Below the pieces are notes generated by a model. That model saw nothing but the letters and a program-made list of their open reading frames with translations. It did not search any database and was not told the DNA's origin. A DNA stretch of 64,000 bases from Wenzhouxiangella sp. XN201 (GTDB lineage Bacteria > Pseudomonadota > Gammaproteobacteria > Xanthomonadales > Wenzhouxiangellaceae), in NCBI RefSeq assembly GCF_011008905.1, contig NZ_JAAIVI010000017.1:1279750-1343749 (forward strand), given 5' to 3'. Positions 6,286 to 16,988 of this stretch are shown here, piece by piece. Numbering within the stretch: the first letter of the stretch is position 1; every line of letters starts with the position of its first letter. A program made the position numbers and the translations under genes.

Positions 6286-7923
6286 ATGAACCGGGAGTCA
6301 CAGCGTCATCCCACACCGGAACTGGCCGGCGACGGCGAGCTTGAATTCACGCAGGCCTTGCCCAAGGCGGCACGGCCGCTGTTTTCCAGCGGGCTTTCAC
6401 GCTTGCTGGTTCGCTTGTCCAAGCGTCATCGTGGCCGCGTCGACGAACTCCTGCAGCAGCGACGGGCCCGTCAGAAGGGGTTCGACGCAGGCCAGCTGCC
6501 CGATTTTCCGGAGGAGACGCGAAGTATCCGGGAATCCGACTGGAAGGTCGCGCCGATTCCGAAGGACCTGCGGGACCGCCGCGTGGAGATCACCGGGCCG
6601 GTCGATCGCAAGATGATCATCAATGCGCTCAACTCCGGCGCCAAGGTCTTCATGGCTGACTTCGAGGATTCCTCGACGCCGACCTGGGCCAACATGATCG
6701 ACGGCCAGGTCAACCTGTACGATGCCGTGCGACGCAGCATCGACTTCACCGCCGACAACGGTAAGCACTACCAGCTCGATCCGGATCCGGCCGTACTGAT
6801 CGTCCGGCCGCGCGGCTGGCATCTGGACGAAAAGCACGTGCAGGTCAGCGGTCAGGCCGTGCCCGGAGGGATCTTCGACGCGGCCGTCTACGTCTACAAC
6901 AATGCCCGCACCCTGATCGACCACGGCAGCGGACCTTACCTGTACCTGCCGAAGCTCGAGAGCCGCCACGAGGCCGAACTGTGGGAGCAGGTGCTGACCG
7001 ACATCGAGGGCGCGCTCGAACTCGAGCCCGGCACGATCAAGGTCACGGTGCTGATCGAGACCCTCCCGGCGGTGTTCGAGATGGACGAGATTCTGCATGC
7101 CCTGAAGAGCCGGATCGTCGGGCTTAATTGCGGACGCTGGGATTATATTTTCAGTTATATCAAATGTTTCCGGGCGCATTCTGACAAAGTACTTCCGGAC
7201 CGGGCGCAGGTCACCATGACCGTGCCGTTCCTCCGCGCCTACTCGCAGCTCCTGATCCGGACTTGCCACCGTCGTGGTGCCTTCGCCATGGGCGGCATGG
7301 CCGCCCAGATCCCGATCAAGGGCGATGAGGCCGCCAACGAGGCCGCCCTGCAGAAGGTGCGTGAGGACAAGGAGCGCGAGGCCGGTGACGGTCACGACGG
7401 CACCTGGGTAGCGCACCCGGGCTTGATTCAGCTCGCGCGGGAGGTTTTCGACCGGCAGCTCGGTGACAAGCCGAACCAACTCCACAGATTGCGTGAAGAC
7501 GTCTCGGTCAGCGCCGCAGATCTGGTGGCGCCGTGCAAGGGCACAATCACGGAGGCCGGCCTGCGCGGCAATATCAATGTGGCGATCCGCTACATGGCCG
7601 CCTGGCTGGACGGGCAGGGCTGCGTACCGATCAATCACCTGATGGAGGACGCGGCCACTGCCGAAATCGCCCGGGCGCAGTTATGGCAGTGGGCGCGGCA
7701 TGATCGCGGCGTGCTCGAGGACGGCCGCGACATCGATCTTGAGCTGATCCGCCGCTGGCAGGCCGAGGAACTGGAAAAGATCCGCGCCGACGTCGGCGAA
7801 AAGGCCTTCGACGACGGTCAGTACCTTGCGGCTGCCGAACTGATCGGCGAGGCCACCGCCAGCGACGATTTTGTCGAATTTCTCACCCTGCCGGGTTACG
7901 CGCGGCTTGTAGGGAATCCCTGA
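6286..7923 (+). CDS. aceB: Malate synthase A
   Basis: Condenses glyoxylate with acetyl-CoA to malate, the second step of the glyoxylate shunt. The 545-residue length fits malate synthase A rather than the ~720-residue G form. The family signature is visible as GLNCGRWDYIF around residue 283. The catalytic region with VRPRGWHLDE is near residue 175, and EDSSTPTWANM near residue 125. It is preceded by GGAG and followed 27 bp later by aceA, so it forms a two-gene aceBA operon. No aceK is visible. Confidence 0.97.
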   Translation: MNRESQRHPTPELAGDGELEFTQALPKAARPLFSSGLSRLLVRLSKRHRGRVDELLQQRRARQKGFDAGQLPDFPEETRSIRESDWKVAPIPKDLRDRRVEITGPVDRKMIINALNSGAKVFMADFEDSSTPTWANMIDGQVNLYDAVRRSIDFTADNGKHYQLDPDPAVLIVRPRGWHLDEKHVQVSGQAVPGGIFDAAVYVYNNARTLIDHGSGPYLYLPKLESRHEAELWEQVLTDIEGALELEPGTIKVTVLIETLPAVFEMDEILHALKSRIVGLNCGRWDYIFSYIKCFRAHSDKVLPDRAQVTMTVPFLRAYSQLLIRTCHRRGAFAMGGMAAQIPIKGDEAANEAALQKVREDKEREAGDGHDGTWVAHPGLIQLAREVFDRQLGDKPNQLHRLREDVSVSAADLVAPCKGTITEAGLRGNINVAIRYMAAWLDGQGCVPINHLMEDAATAEIARAQLWQWARHDRGVLEDGRDIDLELIRRWQAEELEKIRADVGEKAFDDGQYLAAAELIGEATASDDFVEFLTLPGYARLVGNP

Positions 7924-7950
7924 ACTGAAACCACACCGGAGCACGACCGC

Positions 7951-9246
7951 ATGAACAAGGATGTCCAACCGATCATCGAAATGGAACGCGACTGGCTGGA
8001 GAACCCGCGCTGGAAGGGCGTGAAGCGCCCCTACGACGCAAACGAAGTACTGCGACTTCGCGGCAGTGTCACCATCGAGCACACCCTGGCCCGCATGGGG
8101 GCCGAAAAGCTCTGGAAGCTGATGCACGAGGAGGACTTCGTCAATGCGCTCGGCGCCCTGACCGGCAACCAGGCCATGCAGCAGGTGCGTGCCGGCCTGA
8201 AGGCCATCTACCTTTCTGGCTGGCAGGTCGCGGCCGATGCCAATATCGCCGGCCAGATGTACCCCGACCAGTCCCTGTACCCGGCCAATTCGGTGCCGTC
8301 GGTGGTTCGTCGCATCAACAACACTTTCCTGCGCGCCGACCAGATCCAGTCGGCCGAGGGCAAGGGCGACATCGACTGGTTCGCACCGATCGTGGCCGAT
8401 GCCGAGGCCGGCTTCGGCGGCGTCCTCAATGCCCACGAGTTGATGAAGGACATGATCGATGCCGGTGCCGCCGGGGTGCATTTCGAGGATCAGCTCGCCT
8501 CGGCCAAGAAGTGCGGTCACATGGGCGGCAAGGTGCTGGTGCCCACCAAGGAGGCGGTGCAGAAACTCATAGCAGCGCGACTGGCTGCCGATATCGCCAA
8601 TGTTCCGACCATCATCATTGCGCGTACCGACGCCATGGGTGCCGGCCTGGTGACCTCCGACATCGATGAGGTCGACCACCGTTTCATTACCGGCGAGCGC
8701 ACGGCCGAGGGCTTCTACCGCACCGACGCCGGCATCGACCAGGCGATTGCCCGCGGTCTGGCCTACGCTCCTTATGCCGACCTGCTGTGGTGTGAAACCT
8801 CCAAGCCCGACCTGGGCGAGGCGAAGCAGTTCGCGGAAGCCATTCGGGCGGAGTATCCCGACAAGCTGCTGGCCTACAACTGCTCGCCCAGCTTTAACTG
8901 GCGCAAGAATCTGTCCGATACCGAAATCGCCAGCTTCCAGAAGGAACTGGGTGCGATGGGCTACAAGTTCCAGTTCATCACCCTGGCCGGTTTCCATGCA
9001 CTCAACCACGGCATGTTCCAGCTCGCCCGCGGCTACAAGGAACGCCAGATGTCAGCCTACGTCGAGCTGCAACAGGCCGAGTTCGCGGCCGAATCGCAGG
9101 GCTACACGGCCACCCGCCACCAGCGCGAGGTGGGGACCGGCTATTTCGACGAACTGACCCAGGCGATCAGCGGGGGTGATTCCTCGCTTGGCGCGCTGTC
9201 GGGTTCGACCGAGGAAGACCAGTTCGACAACGCCGCAGGCGCCTGA
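7951..9246 (+). CDS. aceA: Isocitrate lyase
   Basis: Cleaves isocitrate to succinate and glyoxylate. The 431-residue protein carries the active-site signature KKCGHM at residues 186-191, with catalytic C188. It also has the substrate and metal loop ending in the acidic [10 protein letters not shown] stretch (about 148-157). The start has a GGAG upstream. It is the second gene of aceBA and converges on the kaiB-like gene at 9305, with a GC-rich hairpin between them. Confidence 0.97.
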
Positions 9247-9304: not shown

Positions 9305-9613
9305 CTATTCCTCACCGATGTCGCCCAGGAAGGCGAGCAGCTTGCGTTCGTTGGACAGGTCGCCGTAGAGCACCGAAACCTCCCCGTTATCGTGCATCAT
9401 CAACAGTGCGGGCGTTGCGAAGACCGAATAACTCACCGACTGCTCCGGATGGGCGAGCAGGTCGATCTCCAGCGGCTTGATGGATTCCTGATCCAGCGCT
9501 TTCAAGGCCCGGGTCAAATTTGCCCGCGCCCGGCGTGATCGCGGTGCGTTGCCGGTGACCAGCAGCGTCAGTGCGGGTACGGCCGATTCGCCTTGTCTGC
9601 TTTCGGCGTTCAC
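9305..9613 (-). CDS. KaiB-like thioredoxin-fold protein
   Basis: Product of 102 residues, the same length as cyanobacterial KaiB. It has the KaiB pattern: LLVTGNAPRSRRARANL near the N-terminus, a central ATPAL (the KaiB ATPTL position) and GDLSNERKLLAFL near the C-terminus (KaiB GDLSDRERVLIGL). KaiB binds the KaiC CI ring in circadian clocks, and family members elsewhere are linked to stress responses. The start overlaps the kaiC-like stop by 4 bp (9610-9613), so translation is coupled. It is the last gene of the four-gene operon. Whether it switches fold like clock KaiB cannot be judged here. Confidence 0.85.
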   Translation of the reverse strand: MNAESRQGESAVPALTLLVTGNAPRSRRARANLTRALKALDQESIKPLEIDLLAHPEQSVSYSVFATPALLMMHDNGEVSVLYGDLSNERKLLAFLGDIGEE

Positions 9614-11310
9614 TTGTCATCTCCTTTCTCGTCACGGCCACGATCGGGTTCCCGCCGCCGTTTCATCTGTTCGGTGTGAGTGCGATCCAACTGTTCAGCC
9701 TCATCGGATGCCTGCTCCTGCAGCTTGAGTTCGGCTTTCAGGCGATCCAGTTCGCTGCGGGTCTGTTCGATTCGGCGTTCCAGATCCTGGTGGTGCTGCA
9801 CTCGCTCTGTCGCGATCCGCCGTTTCTCCGCCCGGTCCTCGCTTTCCTTCTGCGCCCGAGCGGTGCCCATCAGCACCTGTGTGCCGTACTCGTACACGTC
9901 GGCCAGGCTGACGCCGTCATTCGAAAGCACCAGTTCGCGCTGCTGGTTGGAGTGGGCCGTCCCGCGTGATTTCACGATGGAGAGTGAGCGATTGCGTTCG
10001 CCGGCGCGCACGTTGTAGTCGAGCACGATCCAGGTATCGGCAATGGTCGAGACATGCACCAGGGTGGTTTCCCCCTCGGGGTCGCCCTCACCGCTAAGCG
10101 AAGTGAGGATTGTTGTGATTCCCCGGCCGCGTGCTACCGCAAGCAAGCGCTCAATCGCAGTTCGGTGGCCCTCGGAACCGGCGGACTTCAGCAGGGCCGA
10201 AACCGGGTCGATGACCAGGCAGTGCGGTTCGAATTCCTCGATCAGGCGCTGGATGCGAAGGAAGTGCTCGCTGATCAGGGCCGACCATGCCGAACGGGCG
10301 CAAAAGCGAATCCGGCCGGCGTCGATGTGCGGCTGCAGGTGGATGCCCACCGATGCCAGGTTGCGCACATAGGGTGCTTCGATCTCGTCGAAGCTCACAT
10401 ACAGGGTGCGTTCGTCGCGTTCGGCCGCCGCCGCCGCAAAACTGGCCGCCAGCGTGCTTTTTGCAGTGCCGGGGCGGCCTGAGATCAGCGTGCTCGAGCC
10501 CCGGTAGGGCCCGCCACCGAGTAACTGGTCGAGGCGGTCGATACCGGTGCTGACGCGTTCCGTTCCGGCAGTTGCCGGTTTTTCAGCGGGAGTCGCCTGG
10601 TAAGGCAACTGAATACCATCGTCATCCATGATCAGGGGAACAACATCGGTCACATGGGCCGATCCCCGATACTTGGCCACGCGCAGGTGGCGGTTCTGGC
10701 GACGATCGACGACCGTCGCTGTCAGCAGCAGCGTCGTCGGCAGCAGATACTCGATGCCTTCCAGATGGCGGGGAGACAAGCCCCGGTCTCCGACCTTGCC
10801 GCTGAGCAGCAGGGTCCAGCCGTGCTTTTCGCAGTACTCGTTGATCTGCCGCACCTGATTGGCGGCAACAATCGGATCGGGCTGGTGTTGCAGCAATTGA
10901 TCGATACCGTCGACCACGATCCAGGGGTTATCGAAGCGATCCGCCTGCGATGAAATCGCTGCCAGGAGGGCGTCGATATCGAAATCACCGGCGACTTCGG
11001 CGCCGATGGGCGTGCGTGCGTCGATGATCGACCATGCATCCGATTCGATCAGGGCGCTGCCCCAGCGAAACGAATCGGCACTGCGTTTCAGTTGCCCCAG
11101 CGACTCTTCGAAGGTGACGAATACACCGCCGTCGCCTTGCGCGACAGCAGTGGCCAGTATCTGCAGGCCGAGTACCGTCTTGCCGGAACCGGGCTGCCCG
11201 AGAACCAGGGTCGCTTGTCCCTCGGGCAAGCCGCCGTTCGTGAGCCGGTCCAGGCCGGGAATGCCGGTCTTCCGCTTTGTCAGGTGCCAGTCTTTCTTGC
11301 TCATCGCCAT
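9610..11310 (-). CDS. KaiC-like two-domain ATPase
   Basis: RecA-fold ATPase of 566 residues with tandem KaiC domains. The first has Walker A GQPGSGKT (38-45) and catalytic FEE (67-69). The second has Walker A GRPGTAKS (278-285) and FDE (307-309). The clock phosphosites Ser431/Thr432 of KaiC align with S421-T422 in HVSTIADT. The C-terminus (about 485-550) is a charged coiled coil, not the short KaiA-binding tail of cyanobacteria. The frame is open to 11451, but the ATG at 11310 has AGGA seven bases upstream and follows the preceding gene by 26 bp. No kaiA or sasA is nearby. A phosphorylation-dependent signalling role is inferred, not shown. Confidence 0.88.
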   Translation of the reverse strand: MAMSKKDWHLTKRKTGIPGLDRLTNGGLPEGQATLVLGQPGSGKTVLGLQILATAVAQGDGGVFVTFEESLGQLKRSADSFRWGSALIESDAWSIIDARTPIGAEVAGDFDIDALLAAISSQADRFDNPWIVVDGIDQLLQHQPDPIVAANQVRQINEYCEKHGWTLLLSGKVGDRGLSPRHLEGIEYLLPTTLLLTATVVDRRQNRHLRVAKYRGSAHVTDVVPLIMDDDGIQLPYQATPAEKPATAGTERVSTGIDRLDQLLGGGPYRGSSTLISGRPGTAKSTLAASFAAAAAERDERTLYVSFDEIEAPYVRNLASVGIHLQPHIDAGRIRFCARSAWSALISEHFLRIQRLIEEFEPHCLVIDPVSALLKSAGSEGHRTAIERLLAVARGRGITTILTSLSGEGDPEGETTLVHVSTIADTWIVLDYNVRAGERNRSLSIVKSRGTAHSNQQRELVLSNDGVSLADVYEYGTQVLMGTARAQKESEDRAEKRRIATERVQHHQDLERRIEQTRSELDRLKAELKLQEQASDEAEQLDRTHTEQMKRRREPDRGRDEKGDDK

Positions 11311-11336
11311 TATTCCTGTCGGTTGCTCGGCGCCAT

Positions 11337-14300
11337 TCAGTGGGCGCGCGAGTTCGAACTCAGAGGCAGGTTGCCGCCCCGCTGGAGCAGCCAGCGAAAG
11401 TCCTCGGCCGCCAGCGGCATGCTGAAGTAGTAACCCTGTCCGACCTGACAACCCATCTCGAGCAGAGCGTCGGCCACCTGCCTGGACTCGACACCCTCGG
11501 CCACCGGCTCGGCGTCCAGGGCGGCAGCCAGATTCATGACGGTCCGCACGACGTTGTGACTGTAGCGGTCATCGAGGACGTGGTGGACAAAGCCCCGGTC
11601 GATCTTGATCTCGTCGAAGGGATAGCGTTGCAGGTACAGCAGCGAGGAATAACCGGTGCCGAAGTCGTCCAGGGACATTCGCACACCCAGTTCTTTCAGC
11701 TCACGGATTTCGGTCAGCAATCGCTCTGACTGACGTTCGAACACCGACTCGGTGATCTCGAGCGTCAGGTGAGAGGGGTCGACACCGAATTCCTGCAGCG
11801 CCGCGTGAACCTTTTCAGGAAAGTCGCCGAGCATGAACTGGACTTGCGAGACGTTGACCGCCAGGCCCACTGCCGCGAGATCCGAAGTCTGCCATTCGCG
11901 CAGTTGCCTGCAGGCCGCCCGCAGGACCCAGTCGCCGATTGGCCCGATGAGCTGGCTCTGCTCGGCTACCGGAATGAACAAGCCGGGCGGCAACAGGCCG
12001 TGCTCCGGGTGTTGCCAGCGAATCAGGGCCTCGGCTGAAATCATACGGCCGTCTGCAAGGTTGACCTTGGGCTGAAAGTGCAGCTCGAATTCGTCCGCTT
12101 CGAGTGCACGTCGCAGTTCACTGGTCAATTGGATCCGCTCACGCGTCTGCTTGTTCAACTCGGGGGTGAATGCGACCCAGGGTTCCCGGGCCGTCGACGC
12201 CTCACGGTTTTCGTACAGCGCCAGCTCGGCCTCGTGCACCAGGTCTTCCGGTCGACGCTGTTCATCGCCAAGCACGGTGTAGCCCATGCGCAGACCCACG
12301 TCGATATCGATACCGCTGTCGCTGTCGTCCGGATGAAAGGGCTGGTTGACTGCCTTGATCAGACTGCCGAGCTGCGTTTCGAGGTCCATTTTCGTGCTGC
12401 GCGGGAGGTAAACGACAAACTCGTCACCGCCGATGCGAGCAACCAGACCGCGACGCCCCGCCTGACGCTTCAGGCGCCGACCGAGTTCGACCAGTATCCG
12501 GTCACCGGTGGTATAGCCGTGAGCTTCGTTGATGTCGTGTTGCTTCACGACGTCCAGCATGGCGACCACGGCGCCGGCGGGCCATGCACTTTGATTGAAT
12601 CGCTTGCCCAGGCGTTGTGCGAAGCCATTGCGCGAGAGCAATCCGGTCAGTGGATCCTGGTAGGCGAGCCGGCTGAGCTCCCGTTCGGCAAGTTTGCGTT
12701 CGGTGACGTCGATATGCATGGCGACGGCGCCCCCGGCAGCGGCTCCCTCCGATGACAAGCGACTGAACATCACACGGAACCAGCGTTTCTGATCGGGGGA
12801 ATGGCATGGATATTCAAGGGCGAAGGTTTCTCGCTTCCCCACGAGCACATCTCTCAGGCCGTCCGCCACGGTTGCCGCTTCTTCCGAACACTCGCCTCTG
12901 GCAGCTTCGCACAACCCGATGTAATTCGTGCCGATGCCAAAATCGGAGCCGTTGTCGAACTGGTTGTTTTCACCGAAGTGCCGCCACTGGTCGTTGACAT
13001 CGATGATCACACCATCAGCATCCAGCATCGCGATATGGGCGGGCAGGGAGTTGATCAGGATCTGACGCGTATTCAGCGCGGAATTCAGTTCGTCACGGGA
13101 TACGCGCAATGCCGCTTCCTGCGCCCGAAGCTGCTCGAGCATCTGGTGATGTTCGGTGACGTCGCGGAAGAACACGGCCACACCTTCCTCCCAGGGATAG
13201 GCATGCATGTCGAACCAGATGTCCAGGGGCTCGAAAAACTCTTCGGCCGAATTGGAGATGCGCTCTTCCATGGCAGTGACCAGGGCACGCTCCATACGGC
13301 TTCCGACCAGTTCCGGGAACTGATCCCAGATGCTCGTACCGATCAACTCTTCCCGCGACTTGCCCAGGATCCAGGCGGCGGTGGCATTGACGTAGGTGTA
13401 TCGCCATTGTTCGTCGACTGCTACAAAGCCGTCGGTAATGGCTTCGAGCATGGCCGCCAGCCGATCGGTCAGATTGCGGCTTTCGTGCTCGAGCGCCTTT
13501 CGCTCGGAGATATCCTGAAAGGCACCCTGGACCCGTATGATGTTCTGGTTTTCGTCGTAGTCCGGCTCGCCCACGGCCCGTACCCAGCGGCGTTCACCGT
13601 TTGCGTCAATGATCTGAAGTTCTTCGTCGTACGGCTCGCCGCGCTCGGCACAGGCTTTGAAAAGTTCGCTGACGCGCTCACGGAATTCGGGGGCATAAAA
13701 GCGGATACCCTCTTCCAGCGAGGGCGAAAATCCGTGAGGCATGCCGTGGATTTCGGCAACCATGTCGGACCATGCCACGACATGGGTTTCCAGATCGACC
13801 GACCAGGCGCCAAAGCGGGCTGCACGACCGGCCATATCGAGCAATCGTCCCTGTTTTTCGAGGTCAGCTTCTGCCTGTCGTATTTCGGTTACATCGGTGA
13901 TAACCGCGCCCACGCGGCGACTCGATTGCCCGGGAACATCGATCGGATACCAGCGGGCCAGCATGTTCCGTTTTCCAATTCCGGGAAAGTCGCGTATCGC
14001 TTCGTAGCGCAATGACTCCCCGGCCAGGACGCGGTCGAGACGCGGCCGGAGAGAACCTTCGAAAAGCCGCTGTCCGAGCACATCCACGATTGGACGATTC
14101 CGGATCGCTTGCGGACTGACACCATACCGGTCGGCATAAGCCTGATTGATCCACAGATAGCGATAATTGTCATCGACGATGGCACAGAGATCTTCGGTGC
14201 CTTCAAGGAGTTGCTGGAACTGCCGCAGGCGCTCGTCCATCTGTCGTTGGGCTGTAATGTCCTGGACTGTGCCGGTCGTCAAGGCCATTCGACCATCCTG

Positions 14301-15401
14301 ATCGGGGATAATGCGGGCCTGTTCCCGTACCCAGCGAACTTCGCCGTCGGGTCTTACGATGCGGTGTTCGGCATCGAACTCTCCACCCTTCTCCACCCAG
14401 GCGGCCAGGCTTCGGCGCAGCCAGCCCTGGTCCTCGGGATGAACGCCCCCAAAGAAGCTCTCCAGCGTGCCGTCGAAGTCCTCGCGGCGCAGGCCCGAGA
14501 TCTCGAACACCTCGTCGCTCCACTCGAGCTGTCCGGTTGCGAGATGGAGGTCCCAGCTGCCGATGCTGGCGATCGACTGGGCCCGGATCAGTCGATCGCG
14601 GGTGTCGGCGAGTTTGTCCAGCGCGGCTTGCAGCGTCTTCTGCCGTTCGAGCAGTTGGGTGTCGGCGGCATCGCGTTCGTCCAGCGCCTTATTGAGCATC
14701 TCGGCCAGTCGCCCCAGCTCGTCATTGCTGGTCACCGGTGCACGGGCGTCGGTTTCGCCCTCACGCAGCCGTTCGAGCGTGTTGGAGAGCGATCGTACGG
14801 GCTGGGCAACACGGCGGTGGATCAGACCGAAGGCGATAACGCACAAGGCGCCGAAGATCAATGCCGCGCCGGCCAGGGTGGCGCCGATCCATGCCGCCTC
14901 GCGTGCGATCACATCCTGGCGCTGGCTCAGTGCGCTGTCGAGTGCGGTGTCGAGTGCGATGCCCTGTCCGGCGACATGGTGCATGACGATTCGGCTGCGG
15001 ACGGGTACATCGAGCGCCTGGACATCGCGGTCGATCTGGGTTGGGTCACTGCCGGTATCGATGGCGCCCAGCGCCATATCGACGGAATGGATCAGTTGAC
15101 CCAGACGTTGTGCCGCCTTGCGCGCCTCGGAATGACCTTCACCCAGTTGTTCCAGTTCCTGCTGGATTGCCATGCCCTCGGCACGGTAGGCACGCCAAAG
15201 GCCCGGATCCGCACCGAAAAGGACCAGATTGTCGCTGGCGGCGGAAAATTCGTTGATGCGTTCGTGTAATTGCAGGAGTTCATCGATCGCGTCCTGCTTG
15301 TCGAGCATCTGGCGGCCGCTGTATACGCTCAGGGTCAGTAGCAACACCATGCCTGCCACACAGGCCACGATGCTCAATCGCGAGAGCCGGTACAGATTCA
15401 C
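11337..15401 (-). CDS. Membrane PAS/GGDEF/EAL cyclic-di-GMP sensor protein
   Basis: A 1354-residue inner-membrane protein. Layout: TM1 (8-28), a ~140-residue periplasmic loop, TM2 (172-194), HAMP (195-247), and five PAS-like domains (about 275-385, 395-508, 520-635, 645-750, 780-903). GGDEF (908-1070, motif at 991-995) and EAL (about 1090-1335) follow. GGDEF keeps the metal-binding Asp, the substrate Asn and the GD, but has no RxxD inhibitory site. EAL keeps EAL, the Asn of NVS, the Glu of EITES, DDFGTGYSS, KIDRGF, AEGVE and GQGY, so phosphodiesterase activity is likely. Its start overlaps the upstream binding-protein stop by 4 bp, which suggests that protein feeds a signal to the periplasmic loop. 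Confidence 0.92.
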   Translation of the reverse strand: MNLYRLSRLSIVACVAGMVLLLTLSVYSGRQMLDKQDAIDELLQLHERINEFSAASDNLVLFGADPGLWRAYRAEGMAIQQELEQLGEGHSEARKAAQRLGQLIHSVDMALGAIDTGSDPTQIDRDVQALDVPVRSRIVMHHVAGQGIALDTALDSALSQRQDVIAREAAWIGATLAGAALIFGALCVIAFGLIHRRVAQPVRSLSNTLERLREGETDARAPVTSNDELGRLAEMLNKALDERDAADTQLLERQKTLQAALDKLADTRDRLIRAQSIASIGSWDLHLATGQLEWSDEVFEISGLRREDFDGTLESFFGGVHPEDQGWLRRSLAAWVEKGGEFDAEHRIVRPDGEVRWVREQARIIPDQDGRMALTTGTVQDITAQRQMDERLRQFQQLLEGTEDLCAIVDDNYRYLWINQAYADRYGVSPQAIRNRPIVDVLGQRLFEGSLRPRLDRVLAGESLRYEAIRDFPGIGKRNMLARWYPIDVPGQSSRRVGAVITDVTEIRQAEADLEKQGRLLDMAGRAARFGAWSVDLETHVVAWSDMVAEIHGMPHGFSPSLEEGIRFYAPEFRERVSELFKACAERGEPYDEELQIIDANGERRWVRAVGEPDYDENQNIIRVQGAFQDISERKALEHESRNLTDRLAAMLEAITDGFVAVDEQWRYTYVNATAAWILGKSREELIGTSIWDQFPELVGSRMERALVTAMEERISNSAEEFFEPLDIWFDMHAYPWEEGVAVFFRDVTEHHQMLEQLRAQEAALRVSRDELNSALNTRQILINSLPAHIAMLDADGVIIDVNDQWRHFGENNQFDNGSDFGIGTNYIGLCEAARGECSEEAATVADGLRDVLVGKRETFALEYPCHSPDQKRWFRVMFSRLSSEGAAAGGAVAMHIDVTERKLAERELSRLAYQDPLTGLLSRNGFAQRLGKRFNQSAWPAGAVVAMLDVVKQHDINEAHGYTTGDRILVELGRRLKRQAGRRGLVARIGGDEFVVYLPRSTKMDLETQLGSLIKAVNQPFHPDDSDSGIDIDVGLRMGYTVLGDEQRRPEDLVHEAELALYENREASTAREPWVAFTPELNKQTRERIQLTSELRRALEADEFELHFQPKVNLADGRMISAEALIRWQHPEHGLLPPGLFIPVAEQSQLIGPIGDWVLRAACRQLREWQTSDLAAVGLAVNVSQVQFMLGDFPEKVHAALQEFGVDPSHLTLEITESVFERQSERLLTEIRELKELGVRMSLDDFGTGYSSLLYLQRYPFDEIKIDRGFVHHVLDDRYSHNVVRTVMNLAAALDAEPVAEGVESRQVADALLEMGCQVGQGYYFSMPLAAEDFRWLLQRGGNLPLSSNSRAH

Positions 15402-16438
15402 GGAGTCCGGTCCTGTGTATCGGTGCCGGGGATGCCCACTGCATCGGGTCGGACGTCCCGAAGCGGGCCGGCTTCGATCAGGTCGAGTATTCGCAATGGC
15501 CCGCCAGCGTTGTCGTAACCAACCGCCTGGGCCCAGAGAAACTGTTTTTGGAAATCGGCAATCAGCCCCCAGTCGAGGGTGAGGTTGTAGTCGAGTGCGT
15601 CCCAGTGGCCGGCCAGGAGACCTTCGGCCACACCCATTCGCCGGTTGAAGGCGGCAATGGCGTCATTCGGTTCTCGATCGACGAAATCGATCGCCGCCTG
15701 GTAGGCTGCGAGCATATTGCGGCTGAGATCAGGACGATTTTCCACGGTGTGGCGCGTGGTCACGAGGATCCATTTTCCGATATACAGGTTATTGACATGA
15801 AAATGGACCGCCTGGGGTCTTGAATCCTCTTTCAGCCGGGCATCGAGTGTCGATACCCGGGGTTCCACCAATACGGCCGCGTCGATGCGGCCGGCGATCA
15901 GTGCGTCGGACATGTCCGCAAATGACAGGTCGACCAGCTCGATCGAGGCACGGTCGATGCCGTGATACTGCTCGTAGAGCCACCACACGAATTCCGAGTT
16001 CGTCCCGCGGTCGACGGCGATTCTTCGTCCGCGGAAGTCGGCCGGTTGCCGAATGCCGGATTCGCTGGTGGTGACGATCTGTAGCAGGCCCATGGAGTGC
16101 ACCAGGCTGGCGAGAACGACCGGGTCGTCGGGGCCGCCGGGATTCTCGTCGGCCAAACGGTCGAGCACCAGGGGTGTGAGCGCCATCAGCGCGAAATCCG
16201 CCTCGCCGGCGCGCAGCTTCGCCATGCTCGTTACACCCGAGTCGTGATGCGTGACCTCGACCTGAATACCCTGATCGGCAAACAGGCCGTACTCATCGGC
16301 GACGATCGTCGGGACATCGCCCAGATAGACTGCGCTGGCGATGTGGGTCGCTTGCCGTGATTGCTGCGCATGCAAGGTGTTTACCAGCAGCAGAGCCAGT
16401 AAGGGGGCAATCGCCATAATCTTGATCCGAATTTGCAC
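15398..16438 (-). CDS. NMT1/SsuA-like periplasmic substrate-binding protein
   Basis: A 346-residue exported protein with a signal peptide (about residues 1-24, ending LHAQ) and the fold pattern of NMT1/THI5 and TauA/SsuA binding proteins (YLGDVPTIVADEYGLFADQGI; LRAGEADFALMA). No ABC permease or ATPase gene is adjacent. It instead overlaps by 4 bp the membrane PAS/GGDEF/EAL gene, so it probably serves as a ligand sensor. The start is GTG at 16438 with AAGGGG a few bases upstream; an internal ATG lies at 16417. First gene of the kai-like operon. The ligand is unknown. Confidence 0.85.
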   Translation of the reverse strand: MQIRIKIMAIAPLLALLLVNTLHAQQSRQATHIASAVYLGDVPTIVADEYGLFADQGIQVEVTHHDSGVTSMAKLRAGEADFALMALTPLVLDRLADENPGGPDDPVVLASLVHSMGLLQIVTTSESGIRQPADFRGRRIAVDRGTNSEFVWWLYEQYHGIDRASIELVDLSFADMSDALIAGRIDAAVLVEPRVSTLDARLKEDSRPQAVHFHVNNLYIGKWILVTTRHTVENRPDLSRNMLAAYQAAIDFVDREPNDAIAAFNRRMGVAEGLLAGHWDALDYNLTLDWGLIADFQKQFLWAQAVGYDNAGGPLRILDLIEAGPLRDVRPDAVGIPGTDTQDRTP

Positions 16439-16522
16439 AACAACCCCTTAATTTCACTCGGCTTTTGCCATGGTTGTTGTGCCGAGCGTGGCAGTTTCCG
16501 CCTACAATTGCAAAGTTATTAA

Positions 16523-16534
16523 TATTCTTGAATA
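16523..16534. promoter_or_regulatory. AT-rich dyad between kai-like operon and clpS
   Basis: TATTCTTGAATA (16523-16534) is a 5-bp inverted repeat with a 2-bp spacer. It sits in the only AT-rich part of the spacer shared by the divergent kai-like operon and clpS. It could be an operator or part of a promoter; nothing else supports it. Confidence 0.3.
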
Positions 16535-16652
16535 TACGCTGCTATTGGCGCACCTGTCTGTGTCCCCGGCAACATGCGCTCGGGCGCTTGAAAAGCCCAT
16601 ACGGCTGCCGCAGTATGATGAGAATGAACAAGGTCACCCACTCAGGCATTCG

Positions 16653-16988
16653 ATGAGCGAAAAGGAACAGCATTCCGACCCGGGCGGCGGCGAAGGCCTG
16701 GCATTACAGGAAGCGCGGCCGAAGGTACGAAAACCGCCGCTCTACAAGGTTGTCATCCTCAACGACGACTTTACGCCCATGGAGTTCGTGGTCGAGGTTC
16801 TGCAGCGTTTTTTCAGCCTGTCGCGCGACAAGGCCACGAGCGTCATGCTGCATGTGCATACCCGCGGGCGCGGAGTGGCCGGGGTTTATACCTACGAGAT
16901 TGCCGAGACCAAGGTCGTGATGGTCAACGATTACGCCCGCGAGCACGAGCACCCGCTGCAGTGTACGCTGGAGGAGACCGATGGCTGA
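16653..16988 (+). CDS. clpS: ATP-dependent Clp protease adaptor ClpS
   Basis: N-recognin adaptor that delivers N-degron substrates to ClpAP. The 111-residue product has the family core: [17 protein letters not shown] (substrate-pocket Asn-Asp-Asp), [21 protein letters not shown], and the C-terminal HPLQCTLEE. The frame is open from 16470, but ClpS-like sequence begins at the ATG at 16653. It lies 98 bp upstream of clpA in the same direction, the standard clpS-clpA order. Confidence 0.95.

Follow-up and report, generated by a model that had tools for sequence, protein, structure and literature searches.

What might homologues of the cyanobacterial clock proteins KaiB and KaiC do when their genes stand in one row with those for a cyclic di-GMP (c-di-GMP) enzyme and a periplasmic binding protein? 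The question is raised by a four-gene locus of Wenzhouxiangella sp. XN201 (assembly GCF_011008905.1), which lies in a 64,000-nucleotide stretch of contig NZ_JAAIVI010000017.1 (positions 1,279,750 to 1,343,749, hereafter the window). The row encodes an NMT1/SsuA-like periplasmic binding protein, a PAS-GGDEF-EAL membrane protein (here named PGE), a KaiC-like double ATPase, and a KaiB-like protein (Table 1). Across relatives, this neighbourhood is conserved as two overlapping modules, a PGE-kaiC-kaiB core and an optional NMT1-type input. The reading that we favour, tentatively, is that the operon encodes a c-di-GMP phosphodiesterase under two controls, a periplasmic ligand and cytoplasmic KaiBC, and would act as a slow switch, not a clock.

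KaiC orthologues, taken as proteins with at least 460 bits to the KaiC of the window, were found at 12 loci including the window, both within the genus (the window, L018, L019, L020, L021, and L022) and in five other families of the class (L101, L103, L105, L106, L107, and L129; L and G numbers are our handles for loci and genomes). Damaged loci, namely those with KaiC and KaiB of G013 and KaiC of G307, stay within this count. A PGE-lineage GGDEF-EAL or EAL gene is located directly upstream of kaiC on the same strand in 11 of the 12 loci, spanning five families, and the order PGE-kaiC-kaiB recurs in four families besides that of the window; the PGE genes of L020 and L106 are incomplete at a contig end. 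The binding protein is upstream in three loci (the window, L022, and L107), truncated in one (L019), absent in six (L018, L021, L101, L103, L105, and L129), and not visible at the contig end in two (L020 and L106), and PGE has no periplasmic part in L021, L105, and L129. Two genomes, that of the window and G189 from another family, have the full row with all genes open; G013 also has the row, but its KaiC and KaiB are damaged. This distribution suggests that the clock-type genes and PGE are inherited together and that the binding protein is optional. The original prediction had linked KaiBC with a c-di-GMP enzyme and had proposed a search for the four-gene neighbourhood in other genomes; the conserved core supports the link, and the search recovered PGE-kaiC-kaiB almost throughout but the binding protein in only a quarter of the loci.

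Beyond these loci, Wenzhouxiangella limi (G018, same genus) has a 72% identical KaiC, the only match in one KaiC scan of named genomes, and a seventh genome of the genus (G025) encodes a 37% KaiC relative with a different neighbour gene. The phylum sample yielded one new KaiC orthologue in 397 genomes, and the order-level searches around G189 and G204 covered one and three genomes, respectively. A literature search found no report of Wenzhouxiangella with KaiC.

The trees of KaiC (14 sequences, L106 left out) and PGE (12 sequences) both separate three groups: the window with L018, L019, and L020; L103 with L107; and L021, L022, L105, and L129. The KaiC tree joins L103 to L107 with a support of 0.56, the PGE tree with 0.995. 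The third group has a support of 1.000 in the KaiC tree; in the PGE tree, the split between this group and the others is supported at 0.934, but the node of the group itself at only 0.24 once the outgroup is set apart. One genus is split over two groups of the trio, one of which is shared with other families, and this fits, but does not prove, a transfer of PGE-kaiC-kaiB as a unit.

A similar adjacency was observed in the wider class. In a sample of 370 genomes, 29 had KaiB at an E-value of 1e-4, giving 37 KaiB places; exclusion of that in the window left 36, which were read as 31 loci, each centred on one place. KaiC was located within 1 kb in 25 of the 31 loci and not in the other six, and some of the KaiB matches are weak. 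An EAL gene was found within 1 kb of the kaiB/kaiC block in 13 loci, in all 13 on the same strand, and 12 loci have both KaiC and EAL; four of the 13 EAL genes belong to the PGE lineage and nine to other lineages. Up to 1 kb from the block, the density of EAL genes is 0.21 per kb, versus 0.009, 0.019, and 0 per kb at 1–3, 3–6, and 6–9 kb, and this enrichment, together with the gene order recurring in four other families, indicates that the adjacency is more than chance. The 13 of 31 loci agree with a 2011 paper on a Ramlibacter genome, according to which nearly every kaiC-kaiB cluster outside cyanobacteria is followed directly by a gene for a histidine kinase or a GGDEF/EAL protein (PMC3164672; papers are cited here by PMC identifier). 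KaiBC beside GGDEF/EAL genes has therefore been known since 2011, and a Kai system wired to c-di-GMP is not the novelty that the original prediction had taken it for.

The domain composition of PGE (HAMP, several PAS, GGDEF with 88.7 bits, and EAL) leaves two opposite activities to choose from. The EAL catalytic motifs (EAL, N-S, E-TE, DDFGTG, K-D, AEG-E, and QG) are complete in all 12 aligned proteins, a set of 11 PGE-lineage proteins and L100. As for the other domain, the PGE of the window keeps GGDEF, the FK pair is lost in the lineage, and the motif itself is altered in L021, L022, and L105 (AGDEF, TGDEF, and GGDEC) and also in the unlinked L144. With motif and residue roles that we take to apply to PGE, the complete EAL motifs and the eroded GGDEF domain make PGE most likely a phosphodiesterase with a regulatory GGDEF domain. 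The periplasmic part models as a helical bundle (AlphaFold, two sequences, mean predicted local distance difference test score, pLDDT, of 76.3), and its best PDB matches are fragments of the sensor NarQ, with a best E-value of 7.9e-4, one match below 0.001, and template modelling scores of 0.36 to 0.53.

PGE ends in a short C-terminal tail (Table 1), which occurs in each of the 11 PGE-lineage proteins linked to KaiBC (that of L106 being an EAL fragment), in a second copy in G204, and in G003, and is not found in the three unlinked PGE-lineage proteins L143, L144, and L145. The contrast within the lineage rests on these three proteins and may be a lineage signal. The second copy in G204 (L103, 4866–7847) is a GGDEF-EAL gene of the PGE lineage with the same tail, about 1.2 kb beyond kaiB.

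In the mechanism that we favour, the NMT1-type binding protein would dock outside the cell on the helical periplasmic domain of PGE, and the ligand signal would pass through HAMP and PAS to the EAL domain, much as NspS acts on MbaA. Inside, KaiC, as a KaiA-independent ATPase and autokinase, would act with KaiB on the same PGE, taking the place held by histidine kinases beside kaiBC in purple bacteria and reporting the energy or phosphorylation state. We infer these contacts and this direction of control, with c-di-GMP hydrolysis as the probable net activity. The tail of PGE is a lead for the KaiBC contact. A more specific version, in which a fold-switched KaiB and the KaiA-independent KaiC dock on that tail and energy state and external ligand are summed on one enzyme, is doubtful; if true, the direct target of the Kai proteins would be a second-messenger enzyme in place of a histidine kinase.

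Several observations weigh against a KaiBC-controlled PGE. Orthologous KaiC has a patchy distribution, with 6 of the 30 genomes of the genus carrying it (a lower bound because several of these genomes are incomplete), and L101 has no adjacent GGDEF-EAL gene, only an opposite-strand GGDEF gene of another lineage. KaiBC is apparently deleted in G003 and damaged in G013, and PGE-lineage genes stand without adjacent kaiBC in G003, G393, G378, and G407, which means that PGE can exist alone. Most PGE members keep GGDEF itself, so that they may also have cyclase activity. A similar tail occurs in only one (L100) of the nine KaiBC-side EAL proteins of other lineages, which speaks against a general KaiBC dock. 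When four more PGE sequences were added to the tree, L107 joined the unlinked L143 (0.884) and L103 joined its neighbour copy; with L107 regrouped, the agreement of the KaiC and PGE trees is incomplete.

These observations also bear on a serious rival, in which two independent modules share a gene row and a transfer history without any contact between Kai proteins and the enzyme. The separate loss of the two halves is what such modules would leave behind. In G003, the binding protein and PGE are open and adjoin clpS as in the window, its PGE groups with that of L019 (support 0.913) among KaiBC-linked PGEs, and no KaiC was found at an E-value of 1e-30. Two isocitrate lyase-like fragments lie at the PGE end (L109, approximately 9355–9785), the expected place of kaiBC, with a full copy at 13719–15014, which fits a deletion of kaiBC. 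G013 likewise has the binding protein and PGE open beside damaged KaiBC. The pair of binding protein and PGE has no kaiBC beside it in G407, which belongs to another family, or in G006, as far as a cut contig and the KaiC search show; in G393 and G378, PGE has neither kaiBC nor the binding protein beside it. The opposite loss is seen in G011, where kaiC and kaiB are open and most of the binding protein is lost. There, a single open reading frame (L019, 9688–13626) joins the first part of the binding protein to PGE, which begins at about residue 139, and the binding protein and the periplasmic domain are each largely missing. One fixed four-gene cassette was rejected because the halves are lost separately. 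Nevertheless, we consider the absence of any Kai-enzyme contact somewhat unlikely, as the tight PGE-kaiC adjacency is kept in five families and GGDEF-EAL genes are enriched at kaiBC across the class, nine of the 13 coming from lineages other than that of PGE.

The damage at two loci was examined at the level of single genes. In L022 (G013, 7745–9231), most of the first ATPase domain is missing from KaiC, with the reading frame kept, and KaiB contains an in-frame stop; the KaiC of G307 is interrupted. Both cases may be assembly errors, or, for G013, decay. The clpS region was searched in 12 relatives, of which eight were read. No Kai match was found between isocitrate lyase and clpS in any of the seven relatives read besides G003 (L117–L123), where these two genes adjoin, and three of these seven genomes (G018, G002, and G013) carry a kaiBC locus elsewhere.

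Phosphodiesterase control from two sides differs from the direction proposed in the original prediction, in which the ligand changes c-di-GMP, c-di-GMP sets the state of KaiC, and KaiBC is the output. That direction is unlikely, because the binding protein is absent from half of the loci and upstream in only 3 of 12, the periplasmic part is absent from three enzymes, and the pair occurs without adjacent kaiBC in G003 and G407. Two points speak for it: the input gene is first in the row, and c-di-GMP is reported to alter the period and phase of the Synechococcus elongatus clock (PMC13001216). The other half of the prediction, a link between the binding protein and c-di-GMP sensors, fared better. 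The protein has a signal-peptide-like N-terminus (judged by eye), and a search of 61 genomes found ten long homologues, including that of the window, and one fragment, all in the genus and at an E-value of 1e-20 or better. Four of the ten are directly upstream of PGE (the window, G003, G013, and G006, whose contig stops short of the EAL domain). The other six (G029, G009, G019, G008, G025, and G014; L111–L116) precede a putative sensor kinase, which is followed further downstream by a separate EAL gene. These kinases were recognised by two sequence patterns only, and Pfam was applied in one locus (L112), giving the order NMT1, HAMP-PAS hybrid kinase, PAS hybrid kinase, and REC-EAL. The binding protein thus recurs next to sensors that probably signal through an EAL domain. 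A literature search found no report of NMT1 together with GGDEF.

A genuine timer, in which KaiBC gates c-di-GMP over hours as an hourglass, is very unlikely. The KaiC of the window has two PF06745 stretches, together scoring 261.4 bits, and Walker A motifs in CI as well as CII. It lends such a timer some credit, since its closest solved chain is KaiC of Rhodobacter sphaeroides (8dba, 285.9 bits), described as an hourglass with a coiled-coil tail and with autophosphorylation that needs no partner (PMC10076222). Moreover, a long C-terminal tail is kept, which by eye and when aligned with that of R. sphaeroides looks like a coiled coil, and the phosphosite pair is Ser-Thr in all 12 KaiC orthologues. 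However, KaiBC is patchy in the genus, and KaiB may point away from a timer. At two positions changed in fold-switch-stabilised KaiB, it has Phe and Gly, versus Ala and Arg in the stabilised Thermosynechococcus elongatus chain 5jwo and Gly and Asp in 5jwq. The two best Foldseek matches of its model are fold-switched KaiB, thioredoxins and SasA stand further down, and no ground-state KaiB was recognised among the 50 matches listed. These fold matches are weak (best E-value 8.5e-3, none at or below 0.001), since the model was built from two sequences and has a mean pLDDT of 54.8. The KaiB of the window may therefore be in a thioredoxin-like, fold-switched, non-clock form. KaiB proteins stabilised in the fold-switched form have been described (PMC10808063, PMC11551320), and that of Legionella is implicated in stress, not rhythm (PMC10808063). 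As for family membership, KaiB falls just short of PF07689 (Table 1), and five orthologues have 27.0, 33.2, 31.1, 35.2, and 31.4 bits, all five at or over the cut-off.

We rejected a circadian clock as the preferred interpretation because KaiA had no match in the genome (97.88% complete; among 14 control genomes only S. elongatus was positive) and the NCBIfam clock equivalogs remained below cut-off (TIGR02655, 208.5 versus 546.25 bits; TIGR02654, 22 versus 145.3 bits). NF006799 (405.8 versus 408) and NF006798 (23.6 versus 110) were also below cut-off.

The coordinates of the genes and their parts are given in Table 1. The coordinates and Pfam domains agree with the original prediction of four minus-strand genes with two 4-bp overlaps and one 26-bp gap. 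The overlaps, both GTGA, are at 15398–15401 (binding protein and PGE) and 9610–9613 (kaiC and kaiB), and the gap between PGE and kaiC is at 11311–11336. The four genes probably form one transcript, as judged from the gene overlaps only; scans for promoters and terminators gave no excess over shuffled sequences (1 versus 1.7 and 3 versus 5.7) and were uninformative.

Table 1. Features of the four-gene row, with positions numbered from the first nucleotide of the window
Feature	Position	Strand	Basis and remarks
NMT1/SsuA-like periplasmic binding protein, 346 aa	15398..16438	minus	start GTG; PF09084 80 bits, PF13379 54.5
PGE (PAS-GGDEF-EAL membrane protein), 1354 aa	11337..15401	minus	start GTG; Pfam
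PGE periplasmic helical region between two predicted membrane helices	14892..15317	minus	limits approximate, by eye; AlphaFold model
PGE GGDEF domain, conserved set partly eroded	12195..12665	minus	PF00990, alignment
PGE EAL domain	11415..12119	minus	PF00563 249.3 bits, motif inspection
PGE C-terminal tail EDFRWLL...LPL (LP(L/I) at end)	11361..11405	minus	alignment
KaiC-like double ATPase, 566 aa	9610..11310	minus	start ATG; PF06745 twice
KaiC Ser421-Thr422, phosphorylation-site position	10045..10050	minus	aligned to R. sphaeroides Ser-Ser pair
KaiB-like protein, 102 aa	9305..9613	minus	start GTG; PF07689 25.8 bits (cut-off 27)

The row is flanked by genes for a LysR-type regulator, malate synthase, and isocitrate lyase on one side and by clpS, a Clp ATPase gene, and a translation initiation factor gene on the other (Pfam, six genes). 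No transporter gene is among these six, and the binding protein therefore looks orphan here. The start used for the clpS open reading frame (window 16470–16988) is probably too early, since in all 12 relatives the match starts somewhere from residue 39 to 73. Only one match to a PilZ-type c-di-GMP receptor was found in the genome of the window (L142 / L146, G000 contig 20).

Little is known about the outputs of Kai homologues in organisms other than cyanobacteria, and the PGE-KaiC-KaiB trio is a concrete candidate for such an output. If KaiBC does control PGE, this would inform the question of whether the original role of KaiBC was that of a general switch on signalling enzymes, with the clock coming later. 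Compared with cyanobacterial KaiABC, the locus shares a KaiC double ATPase with Ser-Thr and a KaiB-like protein and differs in that no KaiA was found in the genome and in its scores below the cut-offs of the clock families. The kai operon of Legionella pneumophila is another case of KaiBC outside cyanobacteria, and its KaiB crystallised in a thioredoxin-like form (PMC5520375, PMC10808063, PMC11551320), but the Legionella chain 4kun (Lpp1115) matches the KaiB of the window only at an E-value of 0.13. Closer is KaiBC of R. sphaeroides (8DBA), which is the best sequence match for KaiC, needs no KaiA, and has a long C-terminal tail. The kaiBC neighbour there is a histidine kinase (PMC5520375, PMC4794148), and its KaiB is reported to be mostly in the ground state (PMC10808063), whereas KaiB here may be fold-switched.

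The clusters described in the Ramlibacter genome paper (PMC3164672) likewise combine kaiC and kaiB with a GGDEF/EAL neighbour and have a KaiC with a phosphorylatable pair. In those clusters the enzyme is reported downstream of kaiC or kaiB; here it is upstream and membrane-bound, with a binding protein in front. The GGDEF lineage of PGE also differs from nine of the 13 KaiBC-side EAL genes in the class sample. On the periplasmic side, the nearest parallel is NspS-MbaA of Vibrio cholerae, in which a periplasmic binding protein controls a c-di-GMP enzyme able to synthesise or degrade the messenger; NspS senses polyamines (PMC8967002), whereas the binding protein here is NMT1/SsuA-like and the periplasmic domain of PGE models like NarQ. 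The likeness is known here from the adjacency of the genes for the binding protein and the GGDEF-EAL membrane protein. To our knowledge, KaiBC is no part of the NspS-MbaA system. The NMT1-type protein would join the binding proteins proposed to steer c-di-GMP.

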